A DNA stretch of 64,000 nucleotides, taken from positions 248,001 to 312,000 of the forward strand of contig NZ_JAIUZY010000003.1 of assembly GCF_020171625.1 (NCBI RefSeq), in the 5' to 3' direction. A model generated the notes under the pieces. It was given only the letters and a program-made list of their open reading frames with translations. It did not search any database and had not been told where the DNA came from. The stretch is from Salipiger bermudensis. GTDB lineage: Bacteria; Pseudomonadota; Alphaproteobacteria; Rhodobacterales; Rhodobacteraceae. Position numbers and translations under genes: made by a program. Position 1 is the stretch's first letter, and every line of letters starts with the position of its first letter. This document shows positions 5,917 to 22,320 of this stretch, one piece after another.

Positions 5917-6614
5917 TCACCCCCGACCAGCTTCCCCTGCCCCTGCCGGTCCGCGCCGCGCTGGGACGCGAGGACTATTTCGTCGGGCAGTCCAACGGGC
6001 TTGCGGTGGCGTTGCTCGACAACTGGCAGAACTGGCCGAACGGCAAGATGGTGCTGGTTGGGCCGTCGGGCGCCGGCAAGACCCATCTCGCGCATGTGTG
6101 GGCCGCCGAGACCGGCGCCGCCATCGTGCCCGCCGCCAGCCTGCCGGACGCCGATATCCCGATGCTCGCCACGGCGCCGATCTGTGTCGAGGATGGCGAC
6201 CGCATCGCCGGGGATCGCCCGGCGGAGGAGGCGCTGTTTCACCTGCACAACCTCGCGCTGGCGCAGCGCCAGCCGCTGCTGGTCACCGCCCGCTCGGCGC
6301 CGCCGCTCTGGCCGCTGGTGATCGCCGACCTCAAGAGCCGCATGGAGGGCACCCAGACCGCCACCCTGCCCGACCCCGACGACACGCTGCTGGCCGCGGT
6401 GATCGCCAAGATGCTCGCCGACCGTCAATGCGTGCCCGCCGCCGATGTCATCCCCTATCTGGTGCGGCACATGCCGCGCAGCTTTGCCATGGCGCGGGCG
6501 CTGGTGACTGCGCTTGACGCTAACGCGATGGGGCGGCCCAAGGGCATCACCCGCAGCCTTGCGCGGGAGGTTCTGACGCGGCTTGATCCGGGTCAGCGCC
6601 CGGAGGCAGAATAA
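5913..6614 (+). CDS. hdaA: DnaA-related regulatory inactivator (HdaA-like)
   Basis: A 233-residue DnaA-paralogue AAA+ protein without the DnaA DNA-binding domain. The Walker A GPSGAGKT is at residues 50-57, and the acidic ICVEDGDRI stretch resembles a Walker B. By family knowledge, HdaA binds the sliding clamp and stimulates DnaA-ATP hydrolysis to prevent re-initiation. The N-terminal QLPLPLP resembles the clamp-binding motif of Hda proteins. It starts in a 4-bp overlap with the permease gene and ends 5 bp before ppk1, forming a permease-hdaA-ppk1 operon. Confidence 0.9.
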
Positions 6615-6619
6615 TCTCT

Positions 6620-8839
6620 ATGAGCGTCACGAACCTGTTTCAAATGAACCCGCATAAGCCCCACATGAGTATCGCAGATTTCCTCAAGGCCCCGTTGCCT
6701 GCCCCGACCGAAATGACCGAGCTCGATCTCGAGGGGCCCGGTCGCTTCTACAATCGCGAGCTGAGCTGGCTCGGCTTCAACTGGCGGGTTCTCGAAGAGG
6801 CCGAGAATCCGCGCGTGCCGTTGCTCGAGCGGCTGCGCTTCCTGTCGATCTCGGCGACCAACCTTGACGAGTTCTACACCGTGCGCGTCGCGGGTCTTCG
6901 CGAGTTGGCTCATGCCAACAACACCAACCCCGCCGCCGACGGCCTGACGCCGGCGCAGCAGTTGGTCGAGATCAACGAGGACGCCCGCAAGCTGATGGCT
7001 CATCAGCAGAAGGTGCTGCACGCGCTCGAGATCGAGCTGGCCGCCGAGGGCATCGACATCGTGCCCCGCGACGAGCTGTCCGAGGCGGACCGCGCCCATC
7101 TCGAGCAGGCCTTTCTGACGCAGGTCTTCCCGGTGCTGTCGCCGCTTGCCATCGACCCGGCGCACCCGTTCCCGTTCATCGCCAACATGGGCTACTGCCT
7201 CGCGATCTCGCTCGAGCGCAAGCGCGACCGGCGCACCCGCGACGCGCTGCTGCCGATTCCGCACCAGGTCGACCGCTTCATGGCGCTGCCCGCGCCAGAC
7301 GGCCAGCACCGCTTCATCTTCCTCGAAGACGTGCTGCTACTGCACATCGAAAGCATGTTCCCGGGCTACCGGGTGAAGGATCATTTCGGCTTCCGCGTGC
7401 TGCGCGACAGCGATCTCGAGGTCGAGGAAGAAGCCGAGGATCTCGTGCGCGAGTTCGAGGTCGCGCTGAAGCGCCGGCGTCGGGGCGAGGTGGTGCGCCT
7501 GACGATGACCGCCGGCGCGCCCAAGGATCTTCGCCGCACCCTGCAGAACGAGCTGCACGTGGACGATGACGAGGTCATCGAGCTCGACGGCATGATCGGC
7601 ATCGCCGACCTCAAGGAGCTGGTGCTGGGCAGCCGCCCCGACCTGCTCTGGCCCTCCTTCACGCCGCGCGTGCCGGAACGGGTGCAGGACCACGACGGCA
7701 ACATGTTCTCGGCCATAGCCCAGAAGGACATGCTGCTGCACCACCCCTACGAGACCTTCGACATGGTGGTGCGCTTCCTCAAGCAGGCGGCGCTCGACCC
7801 GGACGTGGTGGCGATCAAGCAGACCCTCTACCGGACCTCGAAGGACTCGCCCATCGTCGAGGCGCTGTGCGAGGCCGCCGAGGAGGGCAAGTCGGTCACC
7901 GCGCTGGTCGAGCTCAAGGCGCGTTTCGACGAGGCCGCCAACATCCGCCAGTCGCGCCGGCTGGAACGCTCGGGCGCGCATGTGGTCTACGGCTTCCTCG
8001 AGTGGAAGACCCACGCCAAGATCAGCCAGGTGGTGCGCCGCGAGGGCGACAAGCTGGTGACCTACACGCACTGGGGGACGGGCAACTACCACCCGATCAC
8101 CGCCAAGATCTACACCGACCTGTCGTTCTTCACCTGCGACGCGGCGCTGGGGCGCGACGCGGCGAAGATCTTCAACTATCTCAGCGGCTACGCCATGCCC
8201 GAGGGGATGGAGAACCTCGTGATCTCGCCGCACACGCTCAAGCCCAAGATGCTCGAGTTGATCGCCGCCGAGGCCGAGCACGCCCGCGCCGGGCGGCCGG
8301 CCAGGATCTGGCTCAAGATGAACTCGCTGATCGAGCCCGACATGATCGATGCGCTTTATGCGGCCAGCCAGGCCGGGGTCGAGATCGACTGCGTGATCCG
8401 CGGCATCTGCGGGCTGAAGCCCGGCATCGCGGGGCTGTCCGAGAACATTCGGGTGAAATCGATCATCGGGCGCTTCCTCGAGCATTCGCGCATCATCTGC
8501 TTCGGCAACGGCCACGGCCTGCCGCATGACAAGGCGCGGGTGTTCATGTCCTCGGCGGACTGGATGGGCCGCAACCTCAACCGCCGCATCGAGACCGGGG
8601 TGGAGATCCTGAACCAGACCGTGAAGGCGCAGATCGTCAGCCAGGTGATGGCGGCGAACCTCGCCGACACCGCGCAGAGCTGGGTGATGGAGCCCACCGG
8701 CAAGTTCAGCCGCCACCCGGTGAGCGACGGCGAGACTCCGTTCAACTGCCACCGCTTCTTCATGGAGAACCCCTCGCTCTCGGGCCGCGGCTCCGCCGGT
8801 GCCGCAGACGTGCCGAAGCTGACCCACGGCGACGGCTGA
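6620..8839 (+). CDS. ppk1: polyphosphate kinase 1
   Basis: Reversibly polymerises the ATP gamma-phosphate into polyphosphate. The 739-residue length is normal. It has the N-terminal [19 protein letters not shown] block, the [13 protein letters not shown] region, and the core with the histidine-bearing THWGTGNYH segment followed by [11 protein letters not shown]. The C-terminal PLD-like domains hold [15 protein letters not shown]. In-frame ATGs at 6644 and 6665 are alternative starts; GGAGG at 6602-6606 is somewhat far from the chosen one. A strong terminator follows at 8864. The usual partner ppx is present but separated by a flagellin gene. Confidence 0.96.
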
Positions 8840-8863
8840 GACGGTCGGACGGGTTGTGTAAAA

Positions 8864-8894
8864 CGCCGGGGCGGACGCCGCCCCGGCGCTTTTT
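8864..8894 (+). terminator. rho-independent terminator of ppk1
   Basis: An 11-bp GC-rich perfect stem, CGCCGGGGCGG (8864-8874) with CCGCCCCGGCG (8878-8888), a 3-nt loop and five T residues at 8890-8894. It should end the perM-like/hdaA/ppk1 transcript. Confidence 0.9.
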
Positions 8895-9112
8895 CGTGCA
8901 AGGGGGCCCTGCTCGGTGCGGGCGGGCCTTTGTCTGAGCACGGCCCCCGCACCCCGTCGCTTTCTCGTTGAGGGAACGTGTGCCCGGTGCGGGTCTCTGT
9001 TTGACCTCGGCAGCCGCAGCCCATTTCCTCGCCCCGGCGCTTTCTCGTTCAGGGGGCCTCTACCAGGTCCTCGCGGACCTCTGTACCGCCCCGGCCCCCA
9101 CAACCCACCGCC
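8881..9112. repeat. three degenerate ~75-bp tandem repeats in a 473-bp gene-free gap
   Basis: The gap 8895-9367 holds no convincing gene. Three imperfect units begin at 8881, 8952 and 9032, each opening with a CCCCGGCGCTTTCTCGTT-like block, then AGGG and a GC-rich tail. The first overlaps the right arm of the ppk1 terminator, so the array may be decayed copies of that terminator region. From 9113 to 9367 I see only the probable flagellin leader, with no clear promoter. Confidence 0.6.
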
Positions 9113-9367
9113 ACGCCCCGGAACCGCCCCGAAATCACCACAGCCGCGCCGCATTGCCTTAGCGCAGGGTTAACCGGCGAGGCCCAGTCTGGGGCCTGCG
9201 TCATGGGGGCGGCGGCGCGGGCGTAGACTGTCTCGGCTTCCGGTCCGAGGAACGCACCGCTAGCGGCGAAAACGCTGCCTCGAATGCCCCGACCCGGGCC
9301 CGTCTCGCGCGAACTGCGCGCTTTCCCTGAACAGCCCCGTACAGGCTTCCCCGAGAACAGGCATCCC

Positions 9368-10666
9368 ATGTCCAGCATTCTGACCAATGACAGTGCGTCC
9401 ATCGCGCTGATGAACCTGCAAAGCATCAACACCAACATCGCCGACGTGCAGGCCGAGATCGCCACCGGCCGCCGCGTTGCAGGCGCCGAGGACAACGCCG
9501 CGGTCTGGGCCATCGCCAAGACCATGGAGGCCGACGTGCTGGGCTACCGCAAGGTGGCCGACAGCCTCGCGCTTGGCAGCGCCACCCTCGCGGTGGCGCG
9601 CAACGGCGCCGAGACGATCACCGAGCTGCTGACCGAGATCAAGGGACAGGTGGTCACCGCGCAGGAAGAGAATGTCGACCGCGCCAAGATCCAGAGCACC
9701 ATCTCCTCCCTGCGCGACCAGATCGGCGCGGTGGTCGAGACCGCCCAGTTCAATGGCCTCAACCTGCTGAACAACCGCGACAGCACCGATGGCTCGGGCA
9801 GCGCGCAGGTTCTGGGCTTTCTGCAACGGGATTCCAGCGGCGTGCGCGGGGTCGACATCAGTATCGGCAAGCAGGACCTCTCGACCGCGAGCCGCGAAAT
9901 CGCCGCCTCGGGCGGTACCTACAGCGGCTCCGCGGTCACGGCTACGCTGACCCTCACCCGCAGCGCCACGCTCGACGCCAGCGGCATCACTGTCACCACC
10001 GGCATGGCCTTCTCGCTGTCGCTCTACGGCACCGACGGCGACGGCTCGACCTTCGAGCAGACCGATCTGCGCACCACCTCCGGCGCCACGCAGTCCCGCG
10101 CCGAGATGGTCTCGGCGCCGATCTCCTACGTGGCCCGCGACGGCGACGGCATCGGCGACGTGCTCTCGCAACTGTCGCAGCGCTATGCCAGCTATGCCGC
10201 CCGCTCCGGCATCGACAGCTCCGTCCTGCAGGTGCAGGCCTCGGGCAGCGCGCTTGCCATCTCCTCCGAGGTCACCACCGCCAGCGACACCATCGCCGTG
10301 AAGATCGATACCCTGAGCGCGGATGCCGGCAGCACCATCGGCGGCGGGCTGGAACTGCTGGGCGAACTCGATGTCACCACCGCCGCCGGCGCCAATGACG
10401 CCCTTGCCACGATCGAGGGGCTGCTCGACATCTCGATCAACGCCGCCGCCGCCTTCGGCTCGGACCAGCGCCGGCTCGACACCCAGAGCAGCTTCAACGA
10501 CAGCCTCACCGACGCCATGACGTCCGGGATCGGCACGCTCGTCGATGCGGACCTCGAGGAAAGCTCTGCCCGGCTGCAGGCGCTTCAGGTTCAGCAACAG
10601 CTCGCCATTCAGGCGTTGTCGATCGCCAACGGCGCTCCGGGCGTGCTGCTCTCGCTGTTCCGCTGA
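9368..10666 (+). CDS. flagellin
   Basis: A 432-residue flagellar filament subunit. The N-terminal D0/D1 coiled region includes MNLQSINTNIADVQAEIATG, ATLAVARNGAETITELL and GAVVETAQFNGLNLLN. The C-terminal D0/D1 region ends ALQVQQQLAIQALSIANG and LLSLFR. Between them is a Ser/Thr/Gly-rich variable domain (about 150-330), expected on the filament surface. There is no N-terminal signal, as expected for type III export. No other flagellar gene lies in the window, so this copy is away from any flagellar cluster and stands between ppk1 and ppx. It could be an accessory or phase-specific flagellin. Confidence 0.9.
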   Translation: MSSILTNDSASIALMNLQSINTNIADVQAEIATGRRVAGAEDNAAVWAIAKTMEADVLGYRKVADSLALGSATLAVARNGAETITELLTEIKGQVVTAQEENVDRAKIQSTISSLRDQIGAVVETAQFNGLNLLNNRDSTDGSGSAQVLGFLQRDSSGVRGVDISIGKQDLSTASREIAASGGTYSGSAVTATLTLTRSATLDASGITVTTGMAFSLSLYGTDGDGSTFEQTDLRTTSGATQSRAEMVSAPISYVARDGDGIGDVLSQLSQRYASYAARSGIDSSVLQVQASGSALAISSEVTTASDTIAVKIDTLSADAGSTIGGGLELLGELDVTTAAGANDALATIEGLLDISINAAAAFGSDQRRLDTQSSFNDSLTDAMTSGIGTLVDADLEESSARLQALQVQQQLAIQALSIANGAPGVLLSLFR

Positions 10667-14197: not shown

Positions 14198-14374
14198 TTC
14201 TCTTTCCTGGGGGAGCCCCTCTGATGCGATAGCGAATGCACGGCTCTCCCGCCGCCGGGATCGGACGCGCGGAGCCCCTGCCCTTTTCGCCATCGTAGCG
14301 CCGGGAACACAGACCAACACCGATCCGCCCCGCCGTGAGTGGGCGGCGTGCGGCGTCACGCTATCTGGACAGGC

Positions 14375-15715
14375 ATGAAACAGATCCTTCTCTGCCTCGG
14401 ACTCCTTCTCGCCCCGTGCCAGCTTCTCGGGCAGGAACTCGCGGCGGAGACCGAGGCCCCTCTCACGCTGGCGGTCGAGAACGTTCCCGACGACACGGCC
14501 ATCGCGCAGCGCCTTCGGGCCATCCTTGGCGCGCTCGAGTTCGACGGGATCGCGGTGTCGGTCGACGCCGGGGTGGTCTCGCTCAGGGGCGATGTGGCAG
14601 ATCCCGCCACCATCGCGAAGGTCGAGCGCATCGCCGAGCGCCTCGATGGCGTGGTCGCGGTGAACAACGCGCTCGCGGTCCCGGACGAGCTTGCGCAGCA
14701 GCTTCACCCGGCGGTGGAGCGGTTCCGCACGCGGATCGCGCAGCTGGTTTCGCGCCTGCCGCTGTTCCTCGTGGCGCTCGCCGCCTTCTCAGTGATCGTC
14801 ACGGCGGGGTTCCTGCTGGCCCGGCTGCGCTTCTGGGACCGGATCTCGCCCAATGCGTTCATCGCGGCGATCTACCGGCAGGCCTTCCGCGTCGCCTGTG
14901 TCATCGCAGGCATCGTGATCGCGCTCGATTTTCTCGGGGCGGCGGCCTTGCTCGGGACCATCCTCGGCGCGGCGGGGATCATCGGCCTCGCCATCGGCTT
15001 CGCGGTGCGCGACACGGTCGAGAACTTCGTGGCCTCGATCATGCTCAGCCTGCGCCAGCCGTTCCGCCCGAACGACCTGGTGGAGATCGAGGGCGACGTT
15101 GGCCGCGTGATCCGCCTCACCTCCCGGGCGACGATCCTGCTCTCGCTCGACGGGAACCACGTGCGCATTCCCAACGCCACGGTCTTCAAGGGCAAGATCG
15201 TGAACTACACCCAGAACCCGGCGCGGCGGTTCATGTTCGACATCGGGATCGACCCCGACGCCGATCTAGAGGCGACGCGTGCCCTCGCGCAGGCGGCCCT
15301 GAAGGCACAACCTTTCGTGCTCGACGATCCGGAGGAACTGGTCTGGATCGAGAACATGACCGAGTCCGGGGCGATTCTGCGCGTGACAGGATGGATCGAC
15401 CAGACCGCCACCGGCTTTGCCACCGCGCGCGGCGATGCCATCCGGCTGGTCAAGGCCGCCATCGAAGAGGCCGGCGTGGCGATCCCGGACACGACCTACC
15501 GGATCCGTCTCGAGGGCGCGGGACTGTCACAGCTCGGCTCCGACACGCCTGGCGCACCCTCCGCGCCGGCGCGGAGGGCGCCGGTCTCGCCGACGCCCGC
15601 CCCGACCGAGGAGAGCACGGTCCGCAAATCGGAAGAAGCGGCGCTCATTCCGCTGGTCGATGCCGAACGCAAAGGCAGTGACGACCTTCTCGAACGGGAT
15701 GCACCGCGGGAATAG
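14375..15715 (+). CDS. MscS-family mechanosensitive channel with N-terminal BON domain
   Basis: A 446-residue inner-membrane protein. A signal peptide or first helix (residues 1-20) is followed by a periplasmic BON domain (about 30-105, with GIAVSVDAGVVSLRGDVADP and LDGVVAVNN). Three membrane helices follow, the last being the pore-lining LLGTILGAAGIIGLAIGFAVRD, then the MscS beta domain with LRQPFRPNDLVEIEG and IPNATVFKGKIVNYT. The C-terminal ~70 residues are proline- and charge-rich and probably disordered. It should release solutes on hypo-osmotic shock; the BON domain suggests lipid or envelope contact. It precedes the stressosome-like operon, but 472 bp separate them. Confidence 0.9.
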   Translation: MKQILLCLGLLLAPCQLLGQELAAETEAPLTLAVENVPDDTAIAQRLRAILGALEFDGIAVSVDAGVVSLRGDVADPATIAKVERIAERLDGVVAVNNALAVPDELAQQLHPAVERFRTRIAQLVSRLPLFLVALAAFSVIVTAGFLLARLRFWDRISPNAFIAAIYRQAFRVACVIAGIVIALDFLGAAALLGTILGAAGIIGLAIGFAVRDTVENFVASIMLSLRQPFRPNDLVEIEGDVGRVIRLTSRATILLSLDGNHVRIPNATVFKGKIVNYTQNPARRFMFDIGIDPDADLEATRALAQAALKAQPFVLDDPEELVWIENMTESGAILRVTGWIDQTATGFATARGDAIRLVKAAIEEAGVAIPDTTYRIRLEGAGLSQLGSDTPGAPSAPARRAPVSPTPAPTEESTVRKSEEAALIPLVDAERKGSDDLLERDAPRE

Positions 15716-16030
15716 TCATACGCCTTTCTCTGTGCCGACATCCACCTCCGGCGCGACACAGGGTGCGACCGGCCCGAGGCAGCCTTTCGGCGGCACTTGC
15801 CCGATGCTTTGTCCTCTACGTCCGGCAAACCGAGACGCGGCCGCCCTCGCGCTTCGCTGCGACCACCGAACGCAGTTCAGAGCATGGCGGCAGGGCGGAG
15901 GCATCGCTTGAAACCGCTGCGAGGCCCGCCCCTGGCACGCGTTGACGACTCCATGGCGACGCGACTGCCGGTCCCGGAGCCCCGATGACGGGAATGGCGG
16001 TTCCGAGCCGCTCGAAATCTTCCGACCTGC

Positions 16031-16052
16031 AAAATATCGGGCCCGGTATTTT
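16031..16052. promoter_or_regulatory. 22-bp near-perfect palindrome, possible operator
   Basis: The arms AAAATATCGGG and CCCGGTATTTT are reverse complements except for one base pair. The site lies about 140 bp upstream of the RsbR-like gene and is followed by the smaller palindromic AATATT. Dyad symmetry with A/T-rich ends suits a dimeric regulator. The regulator is unknown. Confidence 0.45.
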
Positions 16053-16126
16053 GGGAATATTTGGCATGAGCGGGCGATTCCCGGTCGCCTCAGCCGGGAC
16101 CGCTTAAGCTTACGTAACCGTATCTG

Positions 16127-16157
16127 TTGACTTTCGCTCACCTGATTGGCTTATCTG
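16127..16157 (+). promoter_or_regulatory. possible promoter of the rsb operon
   Basis: TTGACT at 16127-16132 is a good -35 match. The -10 is weak: TTATCT/TATCTG at 16151-16157 with 18-19 bp spacing. Transcription would start roughly 25 bp before the RsbR-like ATG. Offered as a candidate only. Confidence 0.3.
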
Positions 16158-16187
16158 CCGCATCAAATTCAACTGAGGTTTCAGCAA

Positions 16188-17063
16188 ATGCCGCAGACAT
16201 CCACGGCAAATATCTTGTCCATCCTCGAGACCGATTTTTCCTCCCTCATAGAGGATTGGCTTGGAACCCAGGTGAAAGAGGGCGTGAAGCGCTCCGATCT
16301 CTTTTCCGATTCCGAAAGCCGGGCACAGAACCGCGAACTGCTGAGAGCGTTCAGCAAGGGCGTTCGCGCCGGCGTGGTGAACGAGGAATTCAACCTCGAC
16401 GATGACGCGTGGGAAGACCTGCGCGCGGTTCTGGTCGATGTCAGCAAGGAGCGCGTCGGTCGCGGCGTCACGCCCACCGAGATGGCGACCTTCGTTCTCG
16501 CCCTCAAGTCGACGCTGTTCAAGCGACTCGAGGCCATGCCCGATCTCGAGGGCCAGAGGCTCATCCGCGATGTGCTCATGGTGACCCGTCTGGTCGATGC
16601 CTTCGCGATCTACACCAACGAGATCTTCATCGGCGAGCGCGACCAGATCATCGAGCGGCAGCGGCAGGAAATGCTCGAACTGTCGACACCGGTGGTCGAG
16701 CTCTGGGACCGGGTTCTTACGCTGCCGCTGATCGGCACGCTGGATTCCGCCCGCGCACAGGAGGTCATGGAGAACCTGCTGCAGACCATCCTCGAGCGTC
16801 AGGCCGAGGTGGTGATCATGGACATCACCGGCGTCGGCACCGTGGACACGCAGGTGGCGCAGCACCTTCTGCGGGCCGCCGCCGCTGTGCGCCTGATGGG
16901 GGCTGAATGCATCATCAGCGGCATCAGCCCGATGATCGCGCAGACGATGGTCCAGCTTGGCATCGACGTCGGCACGGTTTCGACCCGCTCGAGCATCCGC
17001 ACCGCGCTGTCCGATGCGCTGCAAAAGGTCGGCTACGTCATCAAGACCAGCGAGGTCTCCTGA
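16188..17063 (+). CDS. RsbR-like stressosome scaffold/sensor with STAS domain
   Basis: A 291-residue protein with an all-helical N-terminal sensor (about 1-160, RsbRD_N-like) and a C-terminal STAS domain (about 165-285). The STAS part holds MDITGVGTVDTQVAQHLLRA and GISPMIAQTMVQLGID. Threonines 221 (VDT) and 253 (AQT) sit where RsbR paralogues carry residues phosphorylated by RsbT. By family knowledge, RsbR and RsbS form a ~1.8 MDa cytosolic shell that holds RsbT until stress. The ATG has GAGG 9 bp upstream; an in-frame TTG 42 bp earlier is less likely. Its stop is one base from the rsbS start. The signal sensed by the N-terminal domain is unknown. Confidence 0.9.
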   Translation: MPQTSTANILSILETDFSSLIEDWLGTQVKEGVKRSDLFSDSESRAQNRELLRAFSKGVRAGVVNEEFNLDDDAWEDLRAVLVDVSKERVGRGVTPTEMATFVLALKSTLFKRLEAMPDLEGQRLIRDVLMVTRLVDAFAIYTNEIFIGERDQIIERQRQEMLELSTPVVELWDRVLTLPLIGTLDSARAQEVMENLLQTILERQAEVVIMDITGVGTVDTQVAQHLLRAAAAVRLMGAECIISGISPMIAQTMVQLGIDVGTVSTRSSIRTALSDALQKVGYVIKTSEVS

Positions 17064-17064
17064 C

Positions 17065-17418
17065 ATGTCGGGTGTGACGTCCATCAATCTGGTCGAGAAC
17101 GCGCTTCTCGTCTCCATTCAGGACGACGTCACCGATACCGAGATCGTGGAATTGCAAGACACCCTCTCGAACCGGATCGCCAAGGAGAACGTCAAGGGCG
17201 TGATCCTCGACATCAGCTCGCTCGAGATCGTCGACACCTTCGTCGGGCGCGTGATCGCGCAGCTGGCCGGGATCTCGCGGCTCCTGGCGGCCGATACCTA
17301 CGTTGTCGGGATGCGCCCGGCGGTCGCGGTGACGCTTGTTGAGCTGGGGATGTACCTGCCCGAGACCCGCACGGCGCTCAGCCTCACCCACGCGCTGTCC
17401 CAGTTGCGGCGTGGCTGA
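17065..17418 (+). CDS. RsbS-like single STAS-domain stressosome protein
   Basis: A 117-residue, single STAS-domain protein, the usual RsbS length. It has the RsbS-like opening ENALLVSIQDDVTDTE, the phospho-acceptor segment SSLEIVDTFVGRVIA and GMRPAVAVTLVELGMYL. In B. subtilis RsbS the acceptor is Ser59 (IDSF); here Thr58 occupies it. This should still accept phosphate from RsbT but may change the kinetics. It starts one base after the rsbR stop and overlaps the rsbT start, so stoichiometric translation is likely. It should form the core of the stressosome shell with the RsbR-like protein. Confidence 0.92.
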   Translation: MSGVTSINLVENALLVSIQDDVTDTEIVELQDTLSNRIAKENVKGVILDISSLEIVDTFVGRVIAQLAGISRLLAADTYVVGMRPAVAVTLVELGMYLPETRTALSLTHALSQLRRG

Positions 17419-17827
17419 CCGCTCCGGGACAAAGGGCACCGCGGTCGCGGAGATCACGCTTGCTGTCAGTCGCGATGTCGTCGCCGCGCGTCAGGCGGTG
17501 GCGCGGGTCCTGAAGGAGCGCGGGCTTTCCGCCATGCGCATCACCCGCTTCGCGACGGCGGTGAGCGAGATTGCCCGCAACGCGATCGTGCATGGCGGCG
17601 GCGGCCGGATTTCGATTTATCTCGACCCGGGCAAGGCGTATCTGCGGGTCGAGTGCCGGGACGATGGTCCGGGGATCGAGGATGTGACGCTGGCCATGAC
17701 CGAGGGCTACACCACGGCAGGCGGGCTCGGCAGAGGGCTTGGCGGCGCCAAGCGGCTCTCGCACGACTTCGAGATCCGGTCCGCCCCCGGTGAAGGCACA
17801 ACCGTTTCCATGAGCGTCAAGTTATGA
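17411..17827 (+). CDS. RsbT-like serine/threonine switch kinase
   Basis: A 138-residue GHKL-fold kinase. It has the N-box EIARNAIVHGGGG, the ATP-lid motif DDGPGIED and the glycine-rich AGGLGRGLGGAKRLS. RsbT kinases phosphorylate RsbR/RsbS, leave the complex and then activate a partner, classically the RsbU phosphatase. The start is GTG at 17411, inside the end of rsbS; no ATG precedes the kinase domain in frame. It overlaps the next gene by 4 bp (ATGA). Its released-state partner here is probably the phosphatase or the histidine kinase encoded next. Confidence 0.9.
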   Translation: MADRSGTKGTAVAEITLAVSRDVVAARQAVARVLKERGLSAMRITRFATAVSEIARNAIVHGGGGRISIYLDPGKAYLRVECRDDGPGIEDVTLAMTEGYTTAGGLGRGLGGAKRLSHDFEIRSAPGEGTTVSMSVKL

Positions 17828-18834
17828 ACCAGTGGGTCGAGATTGATGATCGCAGCGCCGTCGCCGTGGTGCGGCGGCTGGCGCGGCGTCACGGCGCCGA
17901 GATCGGGCTGCCCGAAACGCGCCTCGAAGAGCTTGCCATCGTCGCGTCGGAGGCCGCCACCAACATCCTGCGCTACGCAACCCGTGGCCGGGCCCTGATC
18001 GAACCGATGCGCGGGCCGGATGCAGGCCGCATCGCGATGATCTTCACCGATCGGGGGCCGGGCATCCCGGATATCGACCGGATGTTCGAGGATGGCGAAA
18101 GCTCCACCGAGTCCGCCGGGCTCGGCCTCGGGGCCATCGTGCGGCTGTCCGACAGTTTCGATATCTTCAGCGCGCCCGAGCACGGCACCACGATCGTCTG
18201 CACCTTCGGCGGGGCCGAGGCGGGGCGGACGGGGGATGTCGAGGCGGTCGGGCTGCGCGTGTGCCATCCGCACGAGACCTCCTGTGGCGACGATTACCAG
18301 ATCCGGCAGACGCCGCTGGCGACCGACGTGCTGCTCTGCGACGGTCTCGGCCATGGCCCCGCGGCGGCAGAGGCCGCCGCCGAGGTCACGGACGCCGCCG
18401 TCGCGGCGGGCGGCCTGTCCTCAGAGCCGGGCAAGCTCATGCGCCAGATCACCGAGTCGCTCGTCGGCAAGCGCGGCGCCGTCGCGGCGCTGGTGCATAT
18501 CGCGCAGCCGCAGATGGAGCTGCGCTACGCCGGGCTGGGCAACATCTCGACGCTGGTGATCGGCGCCGGGGGCGTGCGCCGCATGGCGGTCCGGGATGGC
18601 CGCATCGGCGGCGCCGCGACGCGCGGCTACGAGGAAGCCACGCAGCTCGAGGCGGGCGACATGGTGATTATGCACAGCGACGGGCTCAAGACGCTTCGGG
18701 AGAACAACTTTCCGCAGGGCATCCTGCGAAAGAGCCCACTTCTGATCGCCGGCTTCTTCCTCGACCGCGCCTTTCGTGGACGGGACGACGCCAGCATCGT
18801 GGTGATGCGCATCAACCGGGAGCGCACGCAATGA
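17824..18834 (+). CDS. RsbW/T-like ATPase fused to SpoIIE/PP2C phosphatase
   Basis: A 336-residue two-domain protein. The N-terminal GHKL ATPase (about 1-135) has the N-box EAATNILRYA, DRGPGIPD and SAGLGLGAIVRLSD. The C-terminal PP2C-type SpoIIE domain (about 145-336) has VLLCDGLGHGPAAAEAA, MHSDGLKTL and RGRDDASIV with the metal-binding aspartates. The phosphatase part resembles RsbX, which resets the stressosome by dephosphorylating RsbR/RsbS. The ATPase part could phosphorylate STAS partners or hold the protein on the complex. Both domains look intact, so kinase and phosphatase activities may oppose each other. It overlaps both neighbours by 4 bp. Confidence 0.88.
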   Translation: MNQWVEIDDRSAVAVVRRLARRHGAEIGLPETRLEELAIVASEAATNILRYATRGRALIEPMRGPDAGRIAMIFTDRGPGIPDIDRMFEDGESSTESAGLGLGAIVRLSDSFDIFSAPEHGTTIVCTFGGAEAGRTGDVEAVGLRVCHPHETSCGDDYQIRQTPLATDVLLCDGLGHGPAAAEAAAEVTDAAVAAGGLSSEPGKLMRQITESLVGKRGAVAALVHIAQPQMELRYAGLGNISTLVIGAGGVRRMAVRDGRIGGAATRGYEEATQLEAGDMVIMHSDGLKTLRENNFPQGILRKSPLLIAGFFLDRAFRGRDDASIVVMRINRERTQ

Positions 18835-19967
18835 AACCGGCCAAGCTGACCACCGTGACCCTCGAGCAGAGCGCCGACGTCGCCCGATTGCGCGATGTGG
18901 CGATGACGCTGACGACTGTCCTAAACTTCGGCGCCTTCGAGAGGACGCGGACCGTGACCGCCGTCGTCGAGCTCGGCCGGAACGCCATCGAGCATGGTCA
19001 GAAGGGCCGTGCGACCTTCTCGCTCACCGAGGTCAACGGCAAGTCGGCGCTCGGTCTTCTGGTGACCGATCAGGGGCGCGGCATCCCGGAAGAGAGCCTC
19101 GCCCCGGACGGCCCGCCCACCTCTTCCACGGGCATGGGGCTGGGGCTGCGCGGCGTTCAGAGGATCGCCACGCGCTTCGACGTCGACACCGGGCACGAGG
19201 GCACCCGGATCGACGCGACCTTCCTGCCCGCGGCGGGATTGCCCGCCAGCCCGCAGCTGGTGGATCAGGCCGAGGGGGCTCTGACCGAGCTGCGCGCGAA
19301 GGACCCTACCGCGGCGCTCAGCGAGAAGAACCGCGAGCTGACCGAGGGCATCGCCGACCGCGACCTGCTGATGCAGGAGCTGCATCACCGCACCGGCAAC
19401 AATCTGGCGCTCATCGTCGCGCTGATCCGGATGAGCAAGTCGCAGGCCGAGCAGGACGAGACCCAGCAGGTTCTGACCGAGCTCGAGGTTCGGGTCGGCT
19501 CGCTGGCCAAGGCCCACGAATTGATGCAGCGCGGCACGGATGCGGGACAGGTCGATCTTGCAGAGATGCTCGACGAGGTTGCCAAGAACTCGGAGCGGGC
19601 CTTCAGCGGCGGCGCCCTCACCGCCAATATCGAGGTGTCCTGCGCCACGCTGCAGCTCGACAGCAAGTTTGCCATCGACATCGGGCTGATCATCGGCGAG
19701 CTCATCACCAACGCGTTCAAATATGCGTTCGTGGGCCGGGACCGGGGACTGATCCGCGTCGAGGTCACCGGCGACCCGACGCGGGGCATCGCGCTGCTCG
19801 TCTCGGACAACGGCGTCGGCCTGCCGCCGGATGCGGAGCGCCCCGAGCGGTCGAACTCGTTGGGCTGGCGGATGATCCGCACCCTGACCTTCCAGCACGA
19901 CGCAAACCTGACCGTGGACGGCGCCGATGGCCTGCGCGTGCACATCAAGTTCCCGCCGCGCTCCTGA
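18831..19967 (+). CDS. HisKA_2/HWE-type histidine kinase with extra N-terminal RsbT-like ATPase domain
   Basis: A 378-residue protein with two GHKL ATPase domains. Residues 1-135 form an RsbT-like module (N-box VVELGRNAIEHG at about 46-56, TDQGRGIPEE, GMGLGLRGVQRIA). Residues ~140-180 are a charged, coiled linker. The dimerisation/phosphoacceptor box LLMQELHHRTGNNLALIVAL has His185/His186, and the catalytic domain follows (GLIIGELITNAFKYAF, VSDNGVGLP, NSLGWRMIRTL). There is no membrane segment or PAS domain, so the likely input is the stressosome itself. HWE/HisKA_2 kinases typically feed PhyR in the alphaproteobacterial general stress response. No response regulator is adjacent. Last gene of the operon. 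Confidence 0.87.
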   Translation: MKPAKLTTVTLEQSADVARLRDVAMTLTTVLNFGAFERTRTVTAVVELGRNAIEHGQKGRATFSLTEVNGKSALGLLVTDQGRGIPEESLAPDGPPTSSTGMGLGLRGVQRIATRFDVDTGHEGTRIDATFLPAAGLPASPQLVDQAEGALTELRAKDPTAALSEKNRELTEGIADRDLLMQELHHRTGNNLALIVALIRMSKSQAEQDETQQVLTELEVRVGSLAKAHELMQRGTDAGQVDLAEMLDEVAKNSERAFSGGALTANIEVSCATLQLDSKFAIDIGLIIGELITNAFKYAFVGRDRGLIRVEVTGDPTRGIALLVSDNGVGLPPDAERPERSNSLGWRMIRTLTFQHDANLTVDGADGLRVHIKFPPRS

Positions 19968-20137: not shown

Positions 20138-21124
20138 TCACTCCAGCGTCAGGATGGTCTGCCCGGTGGTGCGGCGCGCCTCCAGCACCCGGTGCGCCTC
20201 GGCCACATCCTCGAGCGGGAAGCGCTGATCGATGCGGATGCCGACCTCGCCCGACGCCACCTTGCCGAACAGCATCCCCGCCATCGACTGGCAGGTGGCG
20301 TGGTCGGAGATATGGGTGAACACCGTGGGCCGCGTCACCTTGAGCGACCCCTTCTGGGCCAGAAGGCCGAGATTGAACGCATCGACCGCGCCAGAGGCGT
20401 TGCCGAAGGAAATCATCATCCCCAGCGGCTTCAGGCAGTCGAGCGATCCCTCGAAGGTGGCCTTGCCGACCGAGTCCATCACCACGTCGACGCCCGCGTC
20501 ATCGGTGAGCTCGCGCACCTTCGCCACCCAGTCCTCGGTGGCGTAGTTGATGCAGGCATCCGCCCCCTGCTCCACCGCCAGAGCGCATTTCTCATCCGAC
20601 CCGGCGGTGCCGATCAGCCGGATGCCTTCGGACTTGGCCCACTGGCAGGCGATCAGCCCGACGCCCCCGGCGGCGGCGTGGAACAGCACCGTGTCCCCGG
20701 CCTGCAGCGGCGTCGTGCGATGGAAGAGGTACTGCACCGTCAACCCCTTCAGCATCATCGCCGCGCCCTCCTCGAAGGAGATCGCGTCGGGCAGACGGCA
20801 GACCTGCGCGGCGGGCATCACCCGCGCCTCGCAATAGGCCCCCGGAGGCGCCGAGGCATAGGCGGCCCGGTCGCCGACCTCGAGATGCGACACGCCCTCA
20901 CCCACCGCTTCGATCACGCCCGAGGCTTCCATGCCGAGCGCGTGTGGCAGCGTCATCGGGTAAAGCCCCGAGCGCTGGTAGCAATCGATGAAGTTCAGCC
21001 CGCAGGCCTTGTGCCGGATGCGGATTTCTCCCGGCCCCGGCTCGCCCACCGGCCAGTCCGCCAGCTTCAGCGCCTCGGGGCCGCCGTGTTCCTCGATGAT
21101 GACCGTACGTGCCGTGCCCGCCAT
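20138..21124 (-). CDS. quinone oxidoreductase, zinc-independent MDR family
   Basis: A 328-residue medium-chain reductase of the QOR type, reducing quinones or enones with NADPH in the cytosol. It has the N-terminal GroES-like fold (ACGLNFIDCYQRSGLYP), the quinone-oxidoreductase signature region VLFHAAAGGVGLIACQWAK with the Rossmann glycine motif, and GTAGSDEKC for NADP binding. No catalytic-zinc ligands are evident. A PIG3-like paralogue and COQ9 lie upstream on the same strand. A 212-bp gap precedes it, so it may also have its own promoter. Substrate not determinable. Confidence 0.92.
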   Translation of the reverse strand: MAGTARTVIIEEHGGPEALKLADWPVGEPGPGEIRIRHKACGLNFIDCYQRSGLYPMTLPHALGMEASGVIEAVGEGVSHLEVGDRAAYASAPPGAYCEARVMPAAQVCRLPDAISFEEGAAMMLKGLTVQYLFHRTTPLQAGDTVLFHAAAGGVGLIACQWAKSEGIRLIGTAGSDEKCALAVEQGADACINYATEDWVAKVRELTDDAGVDVVMDSVGKATFEGSLDCLKPLGMMISFGNASGAVDAFNLGLLAQKGSLKVTRPTVFTHISDHATCQSMAGMLFGKVASGEVGIRIDQRFPLEDVAEAHRVLEARRTTGQTILTLE

Positions 21125-21336
21125 GGGGATCCTCCTCTGTTCGCGCGTGGTTTGGAGCAGAGACTGCGTCGGCGCGGCTTCGGGTACAAGGCCCCAAAGC
21201 CGCGCCCCCGATCACCAGATGCGCGGGCGGTGCAGGCTACGACGCGACAGCGCCGCGACATGGTCCACCCGGCATCTCTCCCGCCGCGCTGCGATGCCCC
21301 CACACCAGGCGGGCACGCCCCGTTGGCGGGCCGGTC

Positions 21337-22320
21337 TCAGGCGACCTTCAGGACGATCTTGCCCACATGGGCCGAGCTTTCCATGCGGGCATGGGCCTCG
21401 GAGGCCGCCTCGAGCGGAAAATCGGAGTCCATCACCGGACCGACGCGTCCGGCGTCGAGAAGCGGCCAGACATGCTCGCGCAGGGACGCGGCGATGCGCG
21501 CCTTGGCCTCGACGCCCTGCGGCCGCAGGGTGGAGCCGGTGATGGTCAGCCGCCGCACCATAAGCTGCGCGAAATTCAGCTCGGTCTTCGGCGATTGCAG
21601 GAAGGCGATCTGCACCAGCCGGCCATCATCGGCGAGGGTCTTCAGATTGCGCGGGATGTAGTCGCCACCCACCATGTCGAGGATCAGGTCGGCCCCGCCC
21701 TCGGCGCGCAGCACCTCGACGAAGTCCTCCTCACGATAGTTGATCGCGCGCTCGGCGCCCAGCGAGACGCAGGCGGCGCATTTCTCCGCCGTGCCGGCGG
21801 TCGCGAAGACCCGCGCGCCCAGAACATGCGCCAGCTGGATCGCCGTCGTGCCGATGCCCGACGAGCCGCCATGCACCAAGAAGCGCTCGCCGGCCTTGAG
21901 CCCGCCGCGCTGGAACACGTTGGACCAGACGGTGAAGTAGGTTTCGGGCAGACAGGCGGCCTCGCGCAGCCCCATGCCCGCGGGCACCGGCAGGCAATGC
22001 GCCGCCGGCGTCGCGACGTATTCCGCGTAGCCGCCGCCCGGAAGCAGCGCGCAGACCTGATCGCCCACCGCGGGCCAGCTCACCCCCGGCCCCACCGCCG
22101 CGACGGTGCCCGACGCCTCGAGCCCCGGCAGGTCGCTGGCGCCGGCGGGCGGCGCGTAGCTGCCCGCCCGCTGCAGGGCATCGGGCCGGTTCACCCCGGT
22201 CCAGGCCACTTGAATCACCACCTCGCCATGTCCCGGTTGCGGCATGGGTCGGCTGGTCAGTCGCAGCACCTCCGGCCCGCCCGGCTCGGAGATCTCGACG
22301 GCGCGCATCGTGTCAGTCAT
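21337..22320 (-). CDS. NAD(P)H quinone oxidoreductase, PIG3 family
   Basis: A 327-residue MDR-family reductase of the PIG3/TP53I3 type. It has GVNRPDALQRAGSYAPPAGAS near the N-terminus, FLVHGGSSGIGTTAIQLAH for the cofactor fold and GTAEKCAACVSLGAERAIN. The terminal FPLEAASEAHARMESSAHVGKI is typical of the family. It lies 18 bp downstream of COQ9 and is likely co-transcribed. This suggests a role in quinone or aldehyde handling linked to the respiratory chain, although the substrate cannot be read from sequence. Confidence 0.92.
   Translation of the reverse strand: MTDTMRAVEISEPGGPEVLRLTSRPMPQPGHGEVVIQVAWTGVNRPDALQRAGSYAPPAGASDLPGLEASGTVAAVGPGVSWPAVGDQVCALLPGGGYAEYVATPAAHCLPVPAGMGLREAACLPETYFTVWSNVFQRGGLKAGERFLVHGGSSGIGTTAIQLAHVLGARVFATAGTAEKCAACVSLGAERAINYREEDFVEVLRAEGGADLILDMVGGDYIPRNLKTLADDGRLVQIAFLQSPKTELNFAQLMVRRLTITGSTLRPQGVEAKARIAASLREHVWPLLDAGRVGPVMDSDFPLEAASEAHARMESSAHVGKIVLKVA

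Follow-up and report, generated by a model that had tools for sequence, protein, structure and literature searches.

What does a stressosome control when its operon ends in a histidine kinase? The question is raised by a locus in a 64-kb stretch of Salipiger bermudensis DNA (assembly GCF_020171625.1, contig NZ_JAIUZY010000003.1, positions 248,001 to 312,000 of the forward strand), the whole of which we call the window. At 16188-19967 on its plus strand is a stressosome-type operon of five genes, identified by Pfam domains as rsbR, rsbS, rsbT, a fusion of an RsbT-like domain to a PP2C phosphatase, and a HisKA_2 histidine kinase. A preliminary description of the window had listed these five overlapping or abutting genes, and both their coordinates and their domains are borne out here. 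It had also suggested that the kinase might join the stressosome to the PhyR-NepR-EcfG stress system. We conclude that the five-gene module is a new stressosome variant. The best reading, to which we give somewhat better than even chances, is that this variant activates PhyR by way of an RsbT-fused histidine kinase. That the module works, in general terms, as a stressosome-controlled histidine kinase seems to us quite probable, and we lean toward PhyR as the target of that kinase.

The operon and its RsbT-like histidine kinase

The histidine kinase (18831-19967, plus strand) consists of an RsbT-like ATPase domain (residues ~1-131), a helical linker (141-181), a HisKA_2 domain (183-253) and a HATPase_c domain. 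It holds two ATPase domains (two HATPase_c_2 stretches), and the N-terminal, RsbT-like one was missed in the preliminary description, which had placed the protein in the HisKA_2/HWE class. That assignment can be narrowed: with 59 bits for HisKA_2 (cut-off 22.3) and 37.2 bits for HWE_HK, the kinase is closer to HisKA_2. No match to RsbU_N was found in the kinase at E values up to 1, and the RsbT-like domain occupies that position. The nearest solved relative by sequence is EL346, and the predicted fold in an AlphaFold2 model likewise has EL346 chains as its five best PDB matches, with template modeling (TM) scores by query of 0.36-0.39. The mean predicted local distance difference test score (pLDDT) of the model is 79.4; confidence is low at residues 99-103 and 177-187, and falls below 50 at 177-187 around the histidines.

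The other four genes, all on the plus strand, encode the remaining parts. The product of rsbR (16188-17063) has an RsbRD_N domain (64.7 bits) and a STAS domain (58 bits), and its PDB relatives are RsbR chains of stressosomes. The product of rsbS (17065-17418) is a single STAS domain (37 bits) related to RsbS chains. The third gene, rsbT (17411-17827), has a GTG start and encodes a GHKL-type Ser/Thr kinase (HATPase_c_2, 58.7 bits) that matches anti-sigma F factor chains in the PDB (E 1.4e-5). The fourth gene (17824-18834) encodes an RsbT-like ATPase (HATPase_c_2, 52.9 bits) fused to an RsbX-like PP2C domain (SpoIIE, 39.1 bits), and this PP2C part matches 3zt9 and RsbX 3w40 (E 1.8e-8 for the latter). 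In all, the operon encodes three RsbT-like domains. Its genes are tightly packed, with 1 bp between rsbR and rsbS and overlaps of 8 (rsbS-rsbT), 4 and 4 bp at the later junctions. The sequence features expected of an RsbRST(X) module are present: an RsbR with an N-terminal domain and STAS, adjacent RsbS and RsbT, candidate acceptor Ser/Thr residues, and an RsbX-like PP2C. Among the domains of the five genes there is no RsbU, RsbV, RsbW or SigB, the marks of a SigB-type pathway, and a sigma factor of any kind inside the operon was rejected on the same domain list.

Conserved synteny had been proposed as a check in the preliminary description, and the five genes do keep their order. A scan of named genomes gave 361 relatives, of which the best 80 (79 loci) were kept; 12 loci matched the kinase over nearly its full length (from Alloyangia, Salipiger, Thioclava, Sulfitobacter and Pseudooceanicola) and 67 matched it in part. 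All five genes are present in these 12 loci and in 8 more genomes fetched from the family, and in 21 of 21 loci, the window included, they occur in identical order on one strand. The 21 loci were chosen by their kinase, so the result shows that the kinase comes with the module and not the converse. For the fetched loci, gene calls came from a home-made codon-score program, which missed some short genes.

The residues expected at the active sites are conserved throughout this set (21 sequences per gene, with the window's own among them). Invariant in 21 of 21 are E53, N57, D84, G86 and G88 of RsbT; E43, N47, D76, G78 and G80 of the ATPase in the PP2C fusion; E47, N51, D80, G82 and G84 of the N-terminal ATPase of the kinase; and H185 and H186 (the HH motif), E290, N294, D326 and G328 of its HisKA_2/HATPase part. 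Because the N-box, G1-box and HH residues are invariant, the enzymes of the operon look active, and a degenerate N-terminal ATPase in the kinase was rejected on the same grounds. Also invariant in all 21 sequences are S187 and T221 of RsbR, whose counterparts in aligned RsbR structures are Thr/Ser, and T58 of RsbS, a position that is Ser in the RsbS structures 6jhk and 6qcm. We take these aligned positions to be the phosphosites.

Related kinases and phyR-headed arrays in other alphaproteobacteria

The gene order that points most directly to PhyR comes from another order of the class. RsbS was found in 14 of 376 genomes of a class-wide sample, and RsbT-like/HisKA_2 kinases occur outside the family in three of the genomes (G498, G607 and G748, with that of G607 cut by a contig end). 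In G748, from an order in which 13 of 82 genomes have RsbS, a phyR gene (PhyR_sigma2, PhyR_sigma-like and receiver domains) immediately precedes rsbR, both being on one strand. The arrangement holds in all five genomes of the genus (g649) among those 82, with phyR 15-16 bp upstream of rsbR and, behind it, genes for RsbR, RsbS, RsbT, the PP2C fusion and an RsbT-like/HisKA_2 kinase. The other four array PhyRs are 89.5-98.1% identical to that of G748, and none of the five genomes has a better PhyR_sigma2 match than its array phyR. Besides this copy, G748 has at least two full-length PhyR-like genes (36 and 38% identical), and given these further copies the PhyR that heads its array may be dedicated to the stressosome.

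The RsbT-like domains of the kinases appear to be related beyond this genus. In a tree of RsbT domains, those fused to kinases (12 window-type, 4 of the HisKA_2 type from outside and 3 HisKA-REC hybrids) form one clade that stands apart from the RsbT proteins and from the phosphatase-fused domains, with support of 91/93, below the level that the tool marks with a star. The tree was rooted at the midpoint. Of the 21 window-type loci it covers 12, and the motif filter removed the kinase domain of L180 as well as 6 of the 8 phosphatase-fused domains from outside. Shared ancestry of the kinase-fused RsbT-like domains is thus supported by the tree, and the fusion scaffold probably dates far back in alphaproteobacteria, with differing kinase cores behind it.

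Outputs of other kinds also occur behind stressosomes. Among the 12 non-family stressosomes of the class sample, HisKA_2-type outputs (G498, G607 and G748) stand beside RsbT-like-HisKA-REC hybrids (G463 and G675), a HisKA-REC protein with no RsbT-like match (G584), a HisKA protein without a known N-terminal domain (G684), RsbU_N-HisKA proteins (G648 and G755), a PAS-HisKA-REC-Hpt protein (G499) and a GGDEF-EAL protein (G586); in G580 the contig stops inside the kinase. Within the family, where G250, G226 and G017 have other stressosomes, G250 has an RsbU_N-HisKA kinase and a receiver gene, and G226 a sub-threshold RsbU_N match. At L180 in G675 (6086-9207, minus strand) an RsbT-like-HisKA-HATPase-REC hybrid is followed by a REC-HisKA_2-HATPase kinase, so that relay, too, may end in a HisKA_2 kinase. 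At L181, in another alphaproteobacterium, the protein behind the stressosome is of the GGDEF-EAL type (6416-7846, minus strand).

A proposed mechanism and its rivals

We propose that RsbR and RsbS form a STAS core that would be bound by RsbT and, presumably, by the RsbT-like domains of the phosphatase and the kinase. Upon stress, RsbT would phosphorylate RsbR at its invariant Ser/Thr and RsbS at its invariant Thr. Phosphorylation of the STAS domains would free the RsbT-like domains, and the kinase would leave the core or lose its inhibition. The HisKA_2/HATPase part of the freed kinase could then autophosphorylate on His and pass the phosphoryl group to a response regulator encoded outside the operon, PhyR being the most likely one. 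Phosphorylated PhyR would sequester NepR and so free EcfG, while the RsbT-PP2C fusion would serve as a tethered reset phosphatase. Complex formation, the logic of release, phosphotransfer and the target are what we infer from genes and domains.

The distribution of NepR is consistent with this scheme. The kinase module is rare, with 9 of 394 family genomes carrying it (this genome included), and a profile made from the window type finds RsbS in 12 of 394. G088, the only other genome of the same genus in the family sample, has no match to the module or to RsbS. NepR is present in 9 of 9 module genomes and in 188 of 394 family genomes (one-sided Fisher p 0.0012, with relatedness ignored). A PhyR model matched every one of 21 stressosome genomes, 19 of them carrying the module and 2 carrying stressosomes of other kinds; this alone says little, since the model also matched 4 of 14 controls. 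The S. bermudensis genome has a PhyR gene divergent from NepR on contig C7, together with a HisKA_2 kinase and, by eye, an extracytoplasmic function (ECF) sigma factor gene.

Several results weigh against PhyR as the target. NepR is also present in 2 of 3 family genomes with other stressosomes (p 0.0017 for all stressosome genomes pooled), so its association is not specific to this output. In the 8 of 9 family module genomes for which a position was listed, NepR is on another contig or more than 200 kb away. Of 7 genomes outside the family that have this kinase architecture, 6 gave a NepR match, always a weak one (26.8-29.5 bits, cut-off 25.7), and the seventh, G498, gave none. The PhyR gene of S. 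bermudensis lies on a contig other than that of the module, which weakens the link for the window's own copy. A search for linkage to phyR and nepR, of which ecfG was not part, gave phyR at 5 of 5 arrays of genus g649 and at 0 of 21 window-type loci, where a PhyR query that finds the genome's own PhyR at 44% identity detected no PhyR gene. Genes surrounding the g649 arrays are also syntenic, so the adjacency of phyR there represents one lineage and not five events. No phyR is near the related kinase locus of G498 (L174), and none is in the mere 429 bp available upstream at that of G607 (L175). The window-type kinases and those of the phyR arrays were not joined in a kinase-core tree of 49 rows (without own_L002, whose row came out too short); they were joined in a tree of 35 rows, at 64/76 only. 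From this smaller tree own_L006, own_L007, own_L008 and L180 had been removed for their long branches, and to limit its size 10 of the 21 window-type kinases were left out as well. We do not rely on these trees for a common origin of the kinase cores. If the HisKA_2 cores lack a single origin, HisKA_2 would have been recruited twice, which would itself point to a preferred target.

A further point against concerns the promoter. No EcfG-type motif (GGAAC-N15-19-CGTT or a relaxed form) was found in the 400 bp 5' of rsbR in 23 of 23 loci, and control of the operon by EcfG was therefore rejected. The scan works yet is unspecific, as a similar pattern gave 5 matches in the genome's own 17-kb PhyR locus and 2 in the 64-kb window. 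The connection suggested in the preliminary description thus draws circumstantial support from phyR at the head of the g649 arrays and from NepR in the module genomes, but not from the window's own module, with its PhyR on another contig and no EcfG motif found in the 400 bp before rsbR.

What else might the kinase phosphorylate? One candidate is a type of single-domain response regulator found upstream of rsbR in relatives, which we think rather unlikely to be the target. In Salipiger and Alloyangia loci such a regulator lies 300 bp (L013, 4678-5055) or 521 bp (L213, 5466-5834) upstream of rsbR, and at L011 (2640-5247) a hybrid kinase lies 108 bp upstream of rsbR with a single-domain regulator before it; all three arrangements speak for this candidate at the expense of PhyR. 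In addition, S. bermudensis encodes a homologue of the regulator ~76 kb away from the module, next to a further gene that matches HisKA_2, and MrrA is acted on by HisKA and HWE/HisKA_2 kinases (PMC6530869). However, the upstream regulator was seen in 3 loci and the S. bermudensis homologue belongs to a different unit, so these regulators look like an independent module. Moreover, the homologous array of genus g649 is headed by PhyR and not by a single-domain regulator.

The phosphoryl group might instead go to a regulator that is not part of the general stress response, such as one for cyclic di-GMP (c-di-GMP) or motility, as has been reported or proposed for other stressosomes. Stressosomes with GGDEF-EAL (L181) or HisKA/REC (L127) outputs do exist, as PMC9237108 also documents. 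We nevertheless consider this outcome improbable here: the first called downstream gene, scanned in 16 of the 21 window-type loci, had no response regulator, receiver or c-di-GMP domain (3 of the 16 were without a family match), and the phyR array points elsewhere. It is more doubtful still that the protein is chiefly a second RsbT, one that phosphorylates or binds the STAS proteins, with its histidine kinase part in an unrelated role. The N-terminal ATPase is RsbT-like and its ATP-site residues are invariant, as such a role would have it, but the HisKA_2/HATPase part shows the same invariance at its His, N-box and G1 residues. In the relatives L178 and L180, a HisKA-HATPase-REC hybrid stands behind the RsbT-like domain, which argues for an output role of the histidine kinase part.

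Apparent mobility of the module and its place among known systems

Outside the five genes, no gene family is common to more than 4 of the compared loci, and because the five-gene block is kept with no further shared family, the regulator is probably encoded by the host, outside the module. A family scan of upstream genes covered only some of the loci, and a receiver protein was seen upstream in three. The module looks like a portable unit without a response regulator of its own. One copy (L014) adjoins a phage-type integrase, and Alloyangia pacifica KcN7-14 has two copies (L010 and L012) on different contigs of one genome. In a plasmid collection, 83 records match the kinase, 60 of them over at least 80% of its length, and 58 of the 83 are from Phaeobacter; all five genes were confirmed in both of the records that were opened. 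On plasmid pP92_b of Phaeobacter inhibens P92 (L212, 226 kb), the module (6331-10149) lies ~5.5 kb from paaZ and a flavoprotein gene (15604-18340), which we guess to be part of the tropodithietic acid cluster. Tropodithietic acid genes sit on a 255 kb replicon of P. gallaeciensis (PMC4148982), and the matches include a record of 255,493 bp from that strain.

In the window itself, a sigma-70-like promoter (TTGACT-N17-CTTAT; 16127-16154, plus strand) starts 61 bp 5' of rsbR. A pattern of our own making, TTGAC[AT]-N16-18-C[TC]TA[TC], has a match in 12 of 21 loci, at -57 to -61. A palindrome (16030-16053) with 12-base arms that are 92% complementary, a possible terminator or operator, lies in the gap that separates rsbR from the gene before it. 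By eye, the neighbors are an MscS-like channel gene upstream (14339-15715) and, downstream on the other strand, two tandem quinone-oxidoreductase-like genes (20138-22320). This agrees with the earlier remark that no response regulator or sigma factor is adjacent, as far as neighbors judged by eye and a PhyR query that came back empty in the window can tell.

Stressosomes with two-component outputs, including those of alphaproteobacteria, are already published: PMC9237108 describes RSTX modules with eleven kinds of output, among them HisKA/REC relays and some RsbU_N proteins. The Vibrio-type RsbRSTX minimal stressosome in that source shares with our operon the order RsbR-RsbS-RsbT-phosphatase, the lack of a sigB cascade and a downstream histidine kinase. 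However, its RsbX is a single-domain PP2C and its RsbR a globin sensor. In our operon RsbR is instead of the RsbRD_N type, the PP2C is joined to an RsbT-like domain, and the kinase is a HisKA_2 protein that brings an RsbT-like domain of its own; no receiver gene was found beside it. The RsbU_N-HisKA kinases (L127, L182 and L183, and the Ruegeria-like types of PMC9237108) also follow an alphaproteobacterial stressosome, but carry RsbU_N, the domain that receives RsbT, where the window's kinase has an RsbT-like domain. The Bacillus/Listeria pathway has homologous RsbR, RsbS, RsbT and RsbX with conserved candidate phosphosites, and in addition RsbU, RsbV, RsbW and SigB, genes for which are absent from the five-gene unit. 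On the side of the general stress response, EL346, RT-HK, PhyK and Pak resemble our kinase in having HisKA_2, an ATPase and intact His, N and G1 boxes, and differ from it in that the sensor here is an RsbT-like ATPase.

In the general stress response, stress activates an HWE/HisKA2 kinase, which phosphorylates PhyR (PMC12148442). In the open-licence literature searched we found no stressosome-controlled HWE/HisKA_2 general stress kinase and no report of a link between stressosome and PhyR; PMC3999984 and the review PMC4598750 name both without linking them, in the portions accessible. The RbaVWY system of Rhodobacter, studied in PMC3999984, is a different partner switch. The output of Gram-negative stressosomes is reported as unknown or unclear (PMC4976288 and PMC9237108).

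Stressosomes and PhyR-NepR-EcfG have been described as separate solutions of different bacterial groups, and here they are possibly connected. We see an even chance that the two systems are directly coupled in alphaproteobacteria by an RsbT-like histidine kinase, in a five-gene cassette that uses whatever PhyR the host provides, and that the coupling works by a Ser/Thr partner switch that releases a histidine kinase instead of activating an RsbU phosphatase. If this is true, a Ser/Thr partner switch drives a two-component kinase through fusion of the switch kinase itself. The phyR-headed array, together with the RsbT-fused HisKA_2 kinase, would give Gram-negative stressosomes a directly testable target.

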